Source: Ignavibacteria bacterium
GTDB taxonomy: Bacteria; Bacteroidota; Ignavibacteria; Tepidaquicellales; Tepidaquicellaceae
NCBI GenBank assembly: GCA_019187405.1
Contig: JABAQZ010000007.1
Coordinates: forward strand, 62,001 to 126,000
Length of the DNA: 64,000 bases
Direction: 5' to 3'
Under the pieces are notes generated by a model. That model was not told where the DNA came from. It was given only the letters and a program-made list of their open reading frames with translations, and made no database searches. Position 1 is the stretch's first letter. Each line of letters starts with the position of its first letter. The position numbers and the translations under genes were made by a program. Shown here piece after piece: positions 9,745 through 25,192 of this stretch.

Positions 9745-10227
9745 ACTTCTGTGAACAAAAGTTCAAATTCCCCCTATCAAAGGAACCTGTGTCCAAAACA
9801 ATGGACAGTGATTCCAAAACAATGGACAGTGAAAAGAATTCAGAGAGCAGTGTTATTAATTCAGACTGAAGTGAAAAAAATTCAGAGAGCCGGAGCAATG
9901 AATAAAAGTTCAGTATAACTGAATCAAAGTTCAGTGAAAAAAATTCAGTGCAAAGTGAAAACATTTCAGAGCCGGGTGATATTTATTCAGAGTGATGTGA
10001 ATAAAATTCAGAGAGCGGGTAGAGTGAAACATAGATCAGTGAAATTATTTCGAAGCAATGTGATAAAATTTCAGTGTCCGGTAAATAATATGCAAAGCTC
10101 GATGCAGATAATTCAAAGCTAAATGAAAAATTTTCACTGAACGGTGAAAATATTTCAGAGAGCAGGAAGAGTGATTCAGAGTTTTATGAGACTTTTTCGA
10201 AGCAATGTGAAAGAATTTCAATGTCCT
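9745..10227. repeat. Degenerate tandem array on an exact 21-bp lattice (about 23 units)
   Basis: Units beginning GTGA (or ATGA/CTGA), then an A-rich stretch and TTCAG, recur at 9787, 9808, 9829, 9850, 9871, 9955, 9976, 9997, 10060, 10081, 10102, 10123, 10144 and 10207, all separated by multiples of 21. Other units (9751, 9898, 9919, 10024, 10171) sit exactly 6 bases off the lattice, so spacings of 27 and 15 cancel back to 42 or 63. Individual units are only about 50-75% alike. Read on the plus strand in the GTG frame the units give a 7-residue pattern V-K-x-(I/F)-Q-x-x, but in-frame stops interrupt it. Nothing else in the stretch looks genic. Confidence 0.85.
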
Positions 10228-10562: not shown

Positions 10563-10570
10563 TATTAATT

Positions 10571-10645
10571 AAATAGCGACAAATGTCCCTATAGTAAATA
10601 GCGTCAAATGTCCCTATAGTAAATAGCGTCAAATGTCCCTATAGT
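10571..10645. repeat. Three tandem 25-bp repeats
   Basis: Three contiguous copies of a 25-bp unit start at 10571, 10596 and 10621. Each begins AAATAGCG and ends with ATGTCCCTATAGT; the second and third copies are identical and the first differs at one base (A for T at unit position 9). A fourth copy begins (AAATA) and breaks off. There are no spacers, so this is not a CRISPR array. Clustered short repeats of this kind can be the multi-repeat end of an insertion sequence such as the IS21 family, but no transposase is present. Confidence 0.85.
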
Positions 10646-10671
10646 AAATAACCAGATTTAATATATCGATC

Positions 10672-21634: not shown

Positions 21635-22237
21635 ATGACAAGTAAAAACATTATTCCCCAAAAGCATTCTATCTCAAAAAAAGATCGAAGTAAATTAACC
21701 GGTAACAAACCGATTGTTATATGGTTTACGGGATTATCCGGTTCGGGTAAGTCTACGCTCGTAAATGTACTTGAGCAAAGACTTTTTAAAAGAAGAATTC
21801 TGACATATATATTGGACGGCGATAATATCAGAATGGGTCTGAATAAAGATTTAGGTTTTTCTGATATTGACAGAAAAGAGAATATCAGAAGAGTAAGTGA
21901 AGCAGCAAAACTCTTGACAGACGCCGGCGTAGTTGTGCTGACGGCTTTTATATCGCCATTCAGAGAAGACAGACTTAATGCTAGAAAATTATTCGGTGTA
22001 AATGAATTTATTGAAGTTTATGTCAAGTGTCCGATAGAAATCTGCAGAGAGAGAGACGTTAAAGGACTTTATAAGAAAGCAAAAGAAGGGAAGATTGAAA
22101 ATTTCACCGGCATTGACTCTGACTATGAAGAACCTGAAAATCCTGAACTGATTGTAGATACATCTATCATGTCAGTCGATGAAGCTGTAAACGTGATTGA
22201 AAAATTTATTGAACTTAAACTAATTGAACAAAACTGA
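21635..22237 (+). CDS. cysC: Adenylylsulfate (APS) kinase
   Basis: CysC phosphorylates APS to PAPS, the universal sulfate donor. The 200-residue protein has the P-loop GLSGSGKST at 33-41, LDGDNIRMGLNKDLGFS with the APS-binding Asp and Arg, the IDRKENIRRVSEAAKL helix, FISPFREDR and the VKCPIEICRERDVKGLYKKA lid. Length is normal for a stand-alone kinase. The next gene, cysD, begins on the base after its stop codon, so the two are co-translated. Here the cassette ends in a sulfotransferase rather than reductases, which points to PAPS used for sulfation. Confidence 0.96.
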   Translation: MTSKNIIPQKHSISKKDRSKLTGNKPIVIWFTGLSGSGKSTLVNVLEQRLFKRRILTYILDGDNIRMGLNKDLGFSDIDRKENIRRVSEAAKLLTDAGVVVLTAFISPFREDRLNARKLFGVNEFIEVYVKCPIEICRERDVKGLYKKAKEGKIENFTGIDSDYEEPENPELIVDTSIMSVDEAVNVIEKFIELKLIEQN

Positions 22238-23143
22238 TTGGAAAATTATAATTTAAATTATTTAAAAGATTTAGAATCCGAATCTATTTTTGTAATAAGA
22301 GAAGTGGCAGCGCAGTTTGACAGACCCGGACTGCTATTCTCGGGTGGTAAAGATTCAATAATCCTTACACATCTTGCAATGAAGGCATTTCACCCCGCAA
22401 AAATCCCTTTTCCGCTGATACACATCGATACCGGACACAACTTTCCGGAAACTCTGGTTTATAGAGACAATCTTATAAACAAACTCGGCGTAAAACTAAT
22501 CGTTGGATATGTCCAGGAATCAATTGATAAAGGCAGAGTAAAGGAAGAAACCGGATACAACGCCAGCAGAAACATGCTCCAGACTGTAACTCTTCTCGAT
22601 ACTTTGGATGAATATAAAATTGAAGCGGCAATGGGCGGCGCAAGACGCGATGAAGAAAAAGCCAGAGCAAAGGAAAGATTCTTTTCTCACAGGGATGAAT
22701 TTGGACAGTGGGATCCGAAAAATCAGAGACCAGAACTGTGGAATTTATTTAACGGCAAAAAAAATCCGGGAGAGCATTTCAGAGTGTTTCCAATAAGCAA
22801 CTGGACTGAAATGGACGTCTGGAATTACATTTACATGGAAAAAATAGAAATGCCGGTATTGTATTTCACTCACAAAAGAGAATGCATACGAAGAAACGGT
22901 ACCATACTTGCTCATTCCGAATATCTGAATCTACGTGAATCCGAAAAACCGGAAATACTTCAGGTAAGATTTAGAACCATCGGAGACATGACATGCACAG
23001 GAGCTGTAATTTCAGAAGCAAATTCGCTTGAAGACATAATAAAAGAAGTTTCCGTTTCAAGACAAACTGAAAGAGGCACAAGAGCCGATGATAAAAGATC
23101 TGATACAGCTATGGAGGACAGAAAGAAGGAAGGGTACTTTTAA
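22238..23143 (+). CDS. cysD: Sulfate adenylyltransferase subunit 2
   Basis: CysD is the catalytic subunit of ATP sulfurylase, forming APS from sulfate and ATP together with the GTPase CysN. The PP-loop FSGGKDS lies at 34-40, followed by HIDTGHNFPET, GGARRDEEKARAKER and the C-terminal SRQTERGTRADDK region with EDRKKEGYF at the end. All 301 residues expected for the family are present. The start is a TTG immediately after the cysC stop. Its usual partner cysN is displaced 789 bp downstream by an inserted repeat-flanked gene. Confidence 0.96.
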   Translation: MENYNLNYLKDLESESIFVIREVAAQFDRPGLLFSGGKDSIILTHLAMKAFHPAKIPFPLIHIDTGHNFPETLVYRDNLINKLGVKLIVGYVQESIDKGRVKEETGYNASRNMLQTVTLLDTLDEYKIEAAMGGARRDEEKARAKERFFSHRDEFGQWDPKNQRPELWNLFNGKKNPGEHFRVFPISNWTEMDVWNYIYMEKIEMPVLYFTHKRECIRRNGTILAHSEYLNLRESEKPEILQVRFRTIGDMTCTGAVISEANSLEDIIKEVSVSRQTERGTRADDKRSDTAMEDRKKEGYF

Positions 23144-23144
23144 T

Positions 23145-23333
23145 AGTTAACAGTTAGGAGTTAACAGTTAGGAGTTAACTGTTAACTGTTAACTGTTAAC
23201 TGTTAGGAGTTAACTGTTTACTGTTTACTGTTTACTGTTTACTGTTTACTGTTAACTGTTTACTGTTAACTGTTAACTGTTTACTGTTAACTGTTAACTG
23301 TTTACTGTTAACTGTTAACTATTAGGAGTTAAC
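23145..23333. repeat. Left heptanucleotide array: 27 in-phase 7-bp units
   Basis: The array starts one base after the cysD stop codon region and contains 27 consecutive 7-bp units with no indel: AGTTAAC, AGTTAGG, TGTTAAC, TGTTTAC and one TATTAGG. TGTTAAC and TGTTTAC make up most of it. The first five units alternate AGTTAAC and AGTTAGG, and the AGG variants recur near the middle and at the end. It is followed by about 100 AT-rich bases before the four-helix-bundle gene. Confidence 0.95.
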
Positions 23334-23432
23334 AAATAGCGTTTAACATTTAGTAATTTTTTTAAGAGAGACAAAGTTAAAGTTGGTAATATATTTTAGT
23401 AAATATAAATATGAAATAGATAAAAATATTAT

Positions 23433-23777
23433 ATGAAAGAGGTTATTATAAAGAAAAAATCTTTTGACTTTGCAGTTAGAATGGTTAAGTTGAGTATATT
23501 TTTAAGAGAAAAAAAGAAAGAGTATGTTATTTCAAAACAGGTTTTAAGATCAGGAACTTCAATCGGAGCAAATATAGAAGAAGCATCAGGTGGTGTTTCG
23601 AAAGCAGATTTTAGAAATAAATTATCATTAGCATATAAAGAGGCGCGTGAAACTCATTATTGGTTAAGACTACTCGCAGCAACGAGTTATATAGATAAGA
23701 GATTATACAATTCCATTGAAAATGATTGCACAGAAATCTTAAAAATATTATATACCATTATAAAAAAAACCAAATAA
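23433..23777 (+). CDS. Four-helix-bundle protein (23S rRNA intervening-sequence protein / Avd-like)
   Basis: A 114-residue helical protein of the bIVP/TIGR02436-type family, which shares its fold with Avd of diversity-generating retroelements. The signature is plain: SKQVLRSGTSIGANIEEA, then GGVSKADFRNKLSLAYKEA and RETHYWLRLL, with four helices predicted across the length. The family is often found inside 23S rRNA insertions or scattered at varied loci; its biochemical role is unsettled, with nucleic-acid binding proposed. Here it is in neither an rRNA gene nor a retroelement but inside the cysD-cysN operon, bracketed by two 7-bp repeat arrays. The start is ATG. It reads in the operon direction. 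Confidence 0.9.
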   Translation: MKEVIIKKKSFDFAVRMVKLSIFLREKKKEYVISKQVLRSGTSIGANIEEASGGVSKADFRNKLSLAYKEARETHYWLRLLAATSYIDKRLYNSIENDCTEILKILYTIIKKTK

Positions 23778-23793
23778 TTCGAAAACTGCTTGC

Positions 23794-23926
23794 ATTAACA
23801 ATTAACTATTAACTATTAACTACTAACTACTAACTACTAACTATTAACTATTAACTATTAACTACTAACTACTAACTATTAACTATTAACTATTAACTAT
23901 TAACTACTAACTACTAACTATTAACT
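23794..23926. repeat. Right heptanucleotide array: 19 in-phase 7-bp units
   Basis: Nineteen consecutive 7-bp units with no indel, beginning with one ATTAACA and otherwise only ATTAACT and ACTAACT. ATTAACT differs by one base from GTTAACT, the same-strand rotation of the main left-array unit, so the two arrays are related in direct orientation. The array ends six bases before the cysN start codon. Confidence 0.95.
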
Positions 23927-23932
23927 ATATAA

Positions 23933-25192
23933 GTGATCAATTTTAAAAATAACGAATTACTGCGATTTACAACTGCCGGTAGTGTGGATGACGGAAAGAG
24001 CACGCTTATCGGAAGGCTTTTGTATGATTCAAAATCGATATTCGAAGATCAGCTTGAAGCAGTAAAGAAATCGAGTGAATATAAAGGACTTGATTACGTA
24101 GATTTATCACTGTTGACTGACGGATTGAAAGCAGAGAGAGAACAGAGTATTACAATTGACGTAGCTTACAGATATTTTTCAACCCCTAAAAGAAAATTTA
24201 TCATAGCTGATACTCCCGGACATATTCAATATACAAGAAACATGGTTACCGGAGCTTCGACGGCAAACCTTGCGGTAATTCTTGTTGATGCAAGACATGG
24301 AGTTGTAGAGCAGACCTGCAGACATTCGCTTATTGCATCCCTGTTAAAAATCAATCACATCGTTTTGTGTATCAACAAAATGGATCTTGTAAATTATGAT
24401 AAGGAAGTTTATGAAAAAATTGTGAGTGATTTTAAATCATTTGCATCAAAGCTTGAAGTTAAAGATATTAATTTCATACCGATAAGTGCATTGCTCGGAG
24501 ATAATGTAGTGGACAGATCGGAAAATATGGAATGGTATGAAGGTTCAACCCTGCTCTATCTTCTTGAGAATGTTCACATTGCAAGCGACAACAATCACAT
24601 TGACTGCAGGTTTCCGGTTCAGTATGTCATCAGACCGCAGTCTGATCTGAATCATGATTACAGAGGATATGCCGGAAGAATTGCAGGAGGGATTTTCAAA
24701 CCGGGTGATGAAGTAATGGTTTTGCCTTCGGGATTTTCCTCAAAGATAAAATCCATAGACACCTACGACGGTCCTGTTGAGGAAGCCTTTGCTCCAATGT
24801 CCGTAACAATTACTCTTGAAGATGACCTTGACATAAGCAGAGGAGACATGCTTGTAAGACCTCACAATCAGCCTGAAGTTAGTCAGGATGTTGAAGTCAT
24901 AATGTGCTGGCTGAATAATAATCCGCTTAATCCTTCATCAAAATATATTTTATCTCACACATCAAAAGACGTTAAAGCAATAATAAAAGAAATCAATTAC
25001 AAGATTGACATAAATACATTGCACCGTATAGAAGATGATAAAAATATAAGAATGAATGATATTGCCAGAATGAAACTAAGGACAACACAGCCGTTGTTTT
25101 ATGACAGTTACGGGAGGAATAGAAATACTGGAAGCTTAATTTTAATAGATGAAGCAACAAAAGTTACTGTTGCTGCAGGTATGATAATTTAA
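23933..25192 (+). CDS. cysN: Sulfate adenylyltransferase subunit 1 (GTPase)
   Basis: CysN is the regulatory GTPase of ATP sulfurylase. The 419-residue protein has P-loop GSVDDGKST at 16-24, DGLKAEREQSITIDVAYRYF, DTPGH and the guanine motif NKMD, then EF-Tu-like beta-barrels ending VAAGMII. There is no fused APS kinase, which is consistent with separate cysC. The start is GTG; an in-frame TAA immediately precedes it, so no upstream start is possible and the whole initiation region consists of ATATAA and the right heptamer array. The gene is followed after 14 bp by a sulfotransferase. Confidence 0.96.
   Translation: MINFKNNELLRFTTAGSVDDGKSTLIGRLLYDSKSIFEDQLEAVKKSSEYKGLDYVDLSLLTDGLKAEREQSITIDVAYRYFSTPKRKFIIADTPGHIQYTRNMVTGASTANLAVILVDARHGVVEQTCRHSLIASLLKINHIVLCINKMDLVNYDKEVYEKIVSDFKSFASKLEVKDINFIPISALLGDNVVDRSENMEWYEGSTLLYLLENVHIASDNNHIDCRFPVQYVIRPQSDLNHDYRGYAGRIAGGIFKPGDEVMVLPSGFSSKIKSIDTYDGPVEEAFAPMSVTITLEDDLDISRGDMLVRPHNQPEVSQDVEVIMCWLNNNPLNPSSKYILSHTSKDVKAIIKEINYKIDINTLHRIEDDKNIRMNDIARMKLRTTQPLFYDSYGRNRNTGSLILIDEATKVTVAAGMII

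Follow-up and report, generated by a model that had tools for sequence, protein, structure and literature searches.

What lies between cysD and cysN in the genome of this Ignavibacteria bacterium, and how could it have come to be there? In the window, i.e. the whole 64,000-nucleotide stretch of DNA that was analyzed, cysD, a 7-bp array, an ORF for 114 amino acids, a second 7-bp array and cysN are collinear, all on the + strand, with the array-gene-array unit filling positions 23140–23932. A cysC-like adenylyl-sulfate kinase gene (window 21635–22237) lies directly 5' of cysD, so that the insert splits the gene order cysC-cysD-cysN. The unit (789 bp) is probably one copy of a widespread type of miniature mobile element, here called ‘IVP cassettes’, in which a gene of the PF05635 family is enclosed by inverted arms built of ~7-nt units, the arm sequence being private to each element lineage. 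The features of the locus are as follows.

22238–23143, + strand: cysD, sulfate adenylyltransferase small subunit (NCBIfam CysD, E 2.8e-133)
23141–23143, + strand: TAA stop codon of cysD, the insertion point
23140–23334, + strand: left arm, ~27 heptamers (AGTTAAC/AGTTAGG/TGTTAAC; GTTAACT type), overlapping the cysD stop (TRF; lag-7 scan signal at 23140–23324; sequence)
23335–23432, + strand: spacer between the left arm and the gene, with the ribosome-binding region of the PF05635 gene presumed from the sequence
23433–23777, + strand: PF05635/TIGR02436 gene (23S_rRNA_IVP, four helix bundle protein), 114 amino acids (profile matches; fold model)
23794–23928, + strand: right arm, ~19 heptamers (TAACTAT/TAACTAC; ATTAACT type), in kind the inverted complement of the left arm (TRF; sequence)
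23933–25192, + strand: cysN, sulfate adenylyltransferase large subunit, with a GTG start 4 bases past the right array (NCBIfam CysN, E 4.1e-182)

The insert between cysD and cysN

The arrays of 27 and 19 heptamers around a four-helix-bundle gene, which the initial annotation had described between cysD and cysN, are confirmed by TRF and by profile matches. The left array had been placed one base after the cysD stop codon; the adjacency holds, whereas the offset does not, because the 7-bp periodicity is already present at 23140 and includes the stop codon, so that the array abuts the stop instead of starting after it. The C-terminus of CysD (GYF followed by the stop) is identical in relatives with and without the insert. 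At a score of at least 16, the 64-kb window contains no period-7 array other than the two that flank the PF05635 gene; the lags 5, 6, 8 and 9 yield no arrays in the window at this score, and ten shuffled copies of the window contain no period-7 array. Tandem arrays with units of 21/126 bp and 25 bp, periods unrelated to the heptamers, are located at 9792–10076 and 10570–10650.

The mutual inversion of the two arrays is a feature that had gone unseen. GTTAAC being a palindrome, the arms of the window copy score higher when aligned directly (41.5) than when inverted (24), and since this palindrome is the unit of the window copy itself, the inversion is plainest in the copy of another genome, G021 (L115).

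The window protein matches PF05635 (E 3e-28, 98.6 bits, cut-off 33.8) and TIGR02436 (E 3.6e-32, 110.8 bits, cut-off 24), and its AlphaFold2 model is a four-helix bundle (pLDDT 95.4). The nearest structure is BT_0352 (2RLD; TM 0.90–0.95, 59% identity), followed by 2GSC (TM 0.73–0.82), and the Avd protein of a diversity-generating retroelement (DGR; 4DWL) has a TM of 0.77–0.81 to the model. A profile search found no recombinase domain in this protein, and PADLOC found no defence-system match. Proteins of the PF05635 family are small and common in bacteria, and insertions in 23S rRNA have made them known since the 1990s; to our knowledge, their function has never been settled. Among the polar conserved positions, S43, N47 and E50 are invariant and Y18, Q36, R39, S70 and E73 nearly so, so that these residues may form a working surface of the protein. 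The genome of the window has no intact PF05635 gene besides the window copy; the two others (on contigs C13 and C5) contain in-frame stops and are accompanied by decaying arrays.

Anatomy of the cassettes in relatives and in other phyla

PF05635 is represented in 86 of the 99 genomes, with a maximum of 15 matches per genome. The flanks of 114 distinct PF05635 genes from relatives were compared, in a selection that favors strong PF05635 scores. Within 250 bp, 36 of the 111 genes have a period-7 array on the upstream side and 31 of the 111 on the downstream side, compared with 2 of 104 and 7 of 102 for windows located 1.2–1.4 kb away. At other lags, the surroundings of these genes contain essentially no arrays (2–6 and 10–13), few arrays (8–9) or a harmonic (14). 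The expectation in the initial annotation that other copies of the family carry the same arrays thus holds for the arrays but not for their sequence: the heptamer varies from one element to the next, so that not every copy is flanked by the same arrays, the common properties being period 7 and inverted matching arms.

When the left arm of each locus is compared with the reverse complement of its own right arm (score of at least 16), a match is found at 68% of the 110 loci of relatives, against 1.6% for cross-locus pairs and none for 204 mock genes; in the direct orientation, the fraction is 4.5%. The second set consists of 81 loci from organism-named records, found by a GTDB scan with an alignment of 9 proteins, and covers diverse phyla (Bacteroidota, Clostridia, Planctomycetes, Nitrospirota, Chloroflexi, Alphaproteobacteria, a Methanophagales archaeon and others); here, inverted arms are present at 49% of the loci, against 0.7% for cross-locus pairs. 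The loci that lack arms at this threshold, about a third in the relatives and half in the second set, may reflect decay, draft contig ends or exceptions, which are indistinguishable. The relatives are mostly represented by draft genomes, with assemblies that break at the arrays, and the neighboring ORFs were called mechanically, with the orthology of junctions derived from protein matches. Within arms, a period of 7 fits best in 74 of 90 cases, and what the heptamer units have in common is limited to a loose AGT-like core, which slightly exceeds the permuted null. The median length of the cassettes is 499 bp in the relatives and about 495 bp in the second set.

At one and the same junction, the heptamer drifts between species, yet the left and right arms remain matched: the pairing of an element's own arms exceeds ortholog-cross pairing in 24 of the 30 informative, although non-independent, pairs. 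Upkeep of the arms as an RNA stem through tolerance of G-U pairs was considered and rejected, given that the arm mismatches show no excess of G-U over A-C in either set (128 vs 140 in the relatives; 51 vs 73 in the second set), in a test the power of which is limited by variation in unit order. The lack of a G-U bias argues for DNA-level homogenization or a common binding protein, and against the arms being kept up solely for an RNA stem. The arms were also considered as a supply of stop codons in all three frames, 7 and 3 being coprime, but this candidate found no support (45% of the left arms vs 39% after phase permutation, p 0.1); because pairs and loci of related genomes are non-independent, the quoted probabilities are indicative.

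Occupied junctions, empty junctions and the stop-codon rule

Among the 59 genomes searched, cysD was found in 7, one of them the window's own. The empty junctions that the initial annotation had looked to relatives for do exist: cysD and cysN are separated by 55 bp in G022, 28 bp in G012 and 3 bp in G009, none of which contains the insert. The cysDN junction of G011 spans roughly 146 bp and consists of two inverted TAGTTAA-type arms, with the gene absent. Other cassettes occupy this junction in G021, a congener of G011, where a similar cassette has its PF05635 gene between TAGTTAA-type arms with assembly gaps within the arrays, and in G016, where both cysDN copies contain an unrelated cassette, with another PF05635 gene enclosed by arms of the TTTGGAA type. 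The cysDN gene tree is poorly resolved, so that gain and loss cannot be polarized at this junction.

Two further junctions display the same alternation. The paaA/paaB cassette is present in six genomes (G029, G030, G035, G034, G031 and G033); of four genomes of the same family, G032 and G038 have an empty junction (stop codon, ten bases, ATG), and G037 and G043 have no PF05635 gene there. Branches with and without the cassette alternate in the paaA tree, the deep forks of which have weak support. A TTTGG-type cassette resides between livG and livF in G001, G003, G012, G022 and G024, whereas G006 and G009 have an 8-bp overlap of the two genes, and G011 and G021 hardly any gap between them. In G017, the right arm alone remains at this junction and the congener G003 has the complete cassette; G013 and G018 contain other cassettes and G016 a decayed one. 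Two different PF05635 cassettes (L087 in G001; L121 in G024) are found in the same operon, one before and the other after livF.

That such units move with the arrays as their ends is supported by a cassette found in two unrelated operons. The copy between cysD and cysN of G016 (L117) and the copy between livG and livF of G024 (L121) align over 492 bp with 78% identity, and the homology extends precisely to the outer limits of both arms and no further. Among different-site pairs, arm similarity rises with protein identity, from 1.4% of the pairs at 30–40% identity to 30% at 60% or more, and therefore the gene and the arms travel together. No target-site duplication was seen at the cysDN, paaAB and livGF junctions, where the empty sites have diverged so far that a short duplication could have escaped notice. 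The unit contains no transposase ORF, PF05635 being its only gene. The dN/dS of this gene is 0.01–0.19 for same-site pairs and 0.03 and 0.10 for two different-site pairs; at about 0.01 at paaA/paaB, the many copies that have long stayed at one site look more like a maintained function than like a hopping parasite. The proposal of a passive mobile cassette, with the arrays as its ends, is thus largely supported with respect to the array-bounded mobility but not to the passivity, the gene being under strong purifying selection and perhaps needed.

The neighbors of the cassettes are ordinary conserved operon genes, such as gatB/tpiA, ftsY/mutL, livG/livF and paaA/paaB (gene names read from the sequence). 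The cassettes are in the sense orientation relative to both neighbors in 57 cases and antisense in 4, and the second set gives 31 vs 1. For 48 of the 75 elements, a frame of at least 80 codons has its stop codon within 10 bp of the left end; this is true of 3.2% of random positions. The gap between the left end and this stop is smaller than the gap between the right end and the next start in 47 of the 57 elements, and in several pairs of convergent neighbors both ends of the cassette abut stop codons. Derivatives without the gene obey the same rule. Solo TTTGG left arms number at least ~10 per genome among the matches listed (G001, G016, G022 and G024), and 12 of 20 start within 10 bp of a sense stop codon, against 0 of 20 for antisense stops and 2% at random. 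The position at stop codons cannot be put down to a shortage of space, since some of the solo arms are located there with the next gene 170–420 bp away. The anchoring of the left end at stop codons, in cassettes and in solo arms, is a new observation. The sense orientation, for its part, could reflect selection for expression instead of targeting.

Three gene-less AGTTAGT-type arrays in the genome of the window (on contigs C4, C9 and C15) are located at stop codons as well. The array on C15 (L162, G000:C15:58000-61700, about 1653–2230), ~560 bp long and of the AGTTTGTAGTTTGCAGTTAAC type, lies between an xseA-like and an xseB-like gene and starts at the stop codon of the former. Between convergent genes, an array with 14-nt units (ATTGATAATTCAAC) adjoins a heptamer array (L160, G000:C4:38300-41500, about 1750–1920). 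The solo TTTGG arms (L302, L305, L307 and L309 in G001; L312 in G016) are often directly followed by other heptamer arrays, with the units CAATACT, TTTAACT, TTCAACT and TTAACTA, as if elements had piled up behind one stop.

Mechanism and relation to known systems

The PF05635 protein would recognize the arms of its own element, and it may be kept either for its part in spread or because an operon insert without the protein would harm the downstream gene. Insertion would be directed to the 3' ends of genes, probably via a transcription-linked, translation-linked or single-stranded DNA step. The arms may pair in the operon mRNA, which would turn the insert into a putative processable stem-loop between cistrons, by analogy with the intervening sequences (IVS) of 23S rRNA. 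The window transcript folds better than its shuffles (z -2.6), and it may form a stem that RNase III could process, like that of the Coxiella IVS. No recombination enzyme of known chemistry is encoded in the unit. RVT_1 is missing from the PF05635-rich genomes G001, G008, G016, G045 and G053, and the single RVT_1 match of the window's genome lies on another contig (C33); Y1_Tnp is missing from the PF05635-rich genomes G006, G014 and G047. Within the limits set by draft genomes and old insertions, neither the reverse transcriptase nor the Y1 transposase is a general requirement because there are cassette-rich genomes without each of them.

A transposase acting in trans, which the initial annotation had recommended seeking elsewhere in the genome, was not identified. 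A cassette of this kind, the arms of which would be the ends for a transposase or recombinase encoded elsewhere, by the host or by a foreign element, with PF05635 as cargo or regulator, accords with the lack of a catalytic enzyme in the unit and with the MITE-like dispersal of arms-only derivatives. It is possible but doubtful: the heptamers differ between elements, so that a single transposase serving all of them would have to be largely indifferent to sequence, the PF05635 gene is strongly conserved, and the two classes examined, RVT_1 and Y1_Tnp, are each missing from PF05635-rich genomes. An element that acts at the RNA level, with arms forming a processable stem in the operon mRNA (putatively a substrate of RNase III, as in the 23S rRNA IVS) and with insertion through RNA, would account for both the sense orientation and the placement at stop codons. 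The sense bias, shared by the gene-less arms, the folding of the window RNA, the fold relation to Avd and the family members inside 23S rRNA, where RNase III excises the Coxiella IVS in vitro (PMC4990558), are all compatible with such an element, but the lack of G-U enrichment among the arm mismatches and the several cassette-rich genomes without an RVT_1 reverse transcriptase make it rather unlikely.

Very low dN/dS at fixed sites and the sense placement between conserved partner genes could also point to a domesticated regulatory module, i.e. an intra-operon gene the product of which binds its own arms and tunes the downstream gene, with movement being incidental; the patchy presence at each junction, the unrelated operons, the decayed copies and the arms-only remnants render this interpretation improbable. 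Local repeat expansion, in which heptamers arise by slippage after stop codons and the PF05635 gene enters later, would fit the gene-less single arrays at stop codons and the intergenic TAACTGA heptamers known in Bacteroidetes and others (PMC4679880). It is hardly credible, given that the arms match within an element and not between elements, that the same arm sequence, non-repeat stretches included, recurs at unrelated sites and that the 64-kb window contains no further period-7 array. The mobile IVP cassette remains the preferred reading of the window unit.

Several known systems resemble this cassette in part. Intervening sequences with an S23p/IVP ORF occur in the 23S rRNA of Leptospira, Coxiella and Salmonella. 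They share with the cassettes the protein family, the small size (about 0.4–0.7 kb), complementary ends around the ORF and a location at which RNA continuity is dispensable, so that the insert is tolerated; in the cassettes, ends able to form such a stem are the inverted arms at 68% of the loci, plain in G021. Unlike the IVS, the cassettes lie between protein genes at stop codons and end in element-specific heptamer arrays; conserved 23S motifs revealed no cassette inside 23S rRNA among the loci fetched up to that test. In REPIN/RAYT systems, a gene lies between inverted repeats and gene-less derivatives are dispersed (PMC3116915). The cassettes have the inverted terminal repeat units flanking a gene, the dispersed gene-less hairpin derivatives, the extragenic location and the variation of repeats by lineage, but not the Y1/HUH transposase gene: they encode a four-helix bundle that lacks Y1/HUH chemistry, the repeats are 7-nt arrays and the left end is anchored at stop codons. 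With the DGRs, the cassettes share the fold and family relation to Avd; unlike in DGRs, there is no reverse transcriptase and there are no template/variable repeats beside the window gene, and several cassette-rich genomes lack RVT_1.

A literature search, with subscription papers and preprints outside its reach, found no published description of the association between PF05635 genes and heptamer arms. The cassettes may, tentatively and at somewhat less than even chances, form a new class of mobile elements: half-kb units that encode only a four-helix bundle, with private inverted heptamer ends, sense insertion at stop codons, chemistry unlike that of known transposases and retroelements, and gene-less derivatives, found in much of prokaryotic life, with the 23S rRNA IVS as their rRNA branch. 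The PF05635 genes now have a common anatomy, a target rule (a co-directional stop codon, often in an operon) and presence/absence pairs, so that their function and mobility become directly testable. The cassettes open operons between partner genes (cysD/cysN, paaA/paaB, livG/livF), and, if the insertion step involves new chemistry, stop-codon-directed insertion would be of interest to genome engineers.

The cassettes would also be one source of long heptamer arrays behind genes of bacteria, the TAACTGA repeats being an example. Intergenic TAACTGA heptamers have been described in Beggiatoaceae, Cyanobacteria and Bacteroidetes, mostly before start codons, with translational regulation or rearrangement proposed as their role (MacGregor 2015, PMC4679880). 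Like the arrays studied here, these repeats are intergenic, nearly identical to the TAACTGT/TAACTAT units of the window, and relatives with shorter, repeat-free intergenic regions have been noted (PMC4679880); unlike them, they were reported mostly before starts and without a link to a four-helix-bundle gene, which that paper does not mention. In the window's genome, short TAACTG-like runs also fall inside an apparent repeated C-terminal coding segment with an NYPNPFNP motif (L163 and L164, G000:C3, about 1480–1515; L165, G000:C10, about 1471–1508), so that heptamers of this type can be coding as well.
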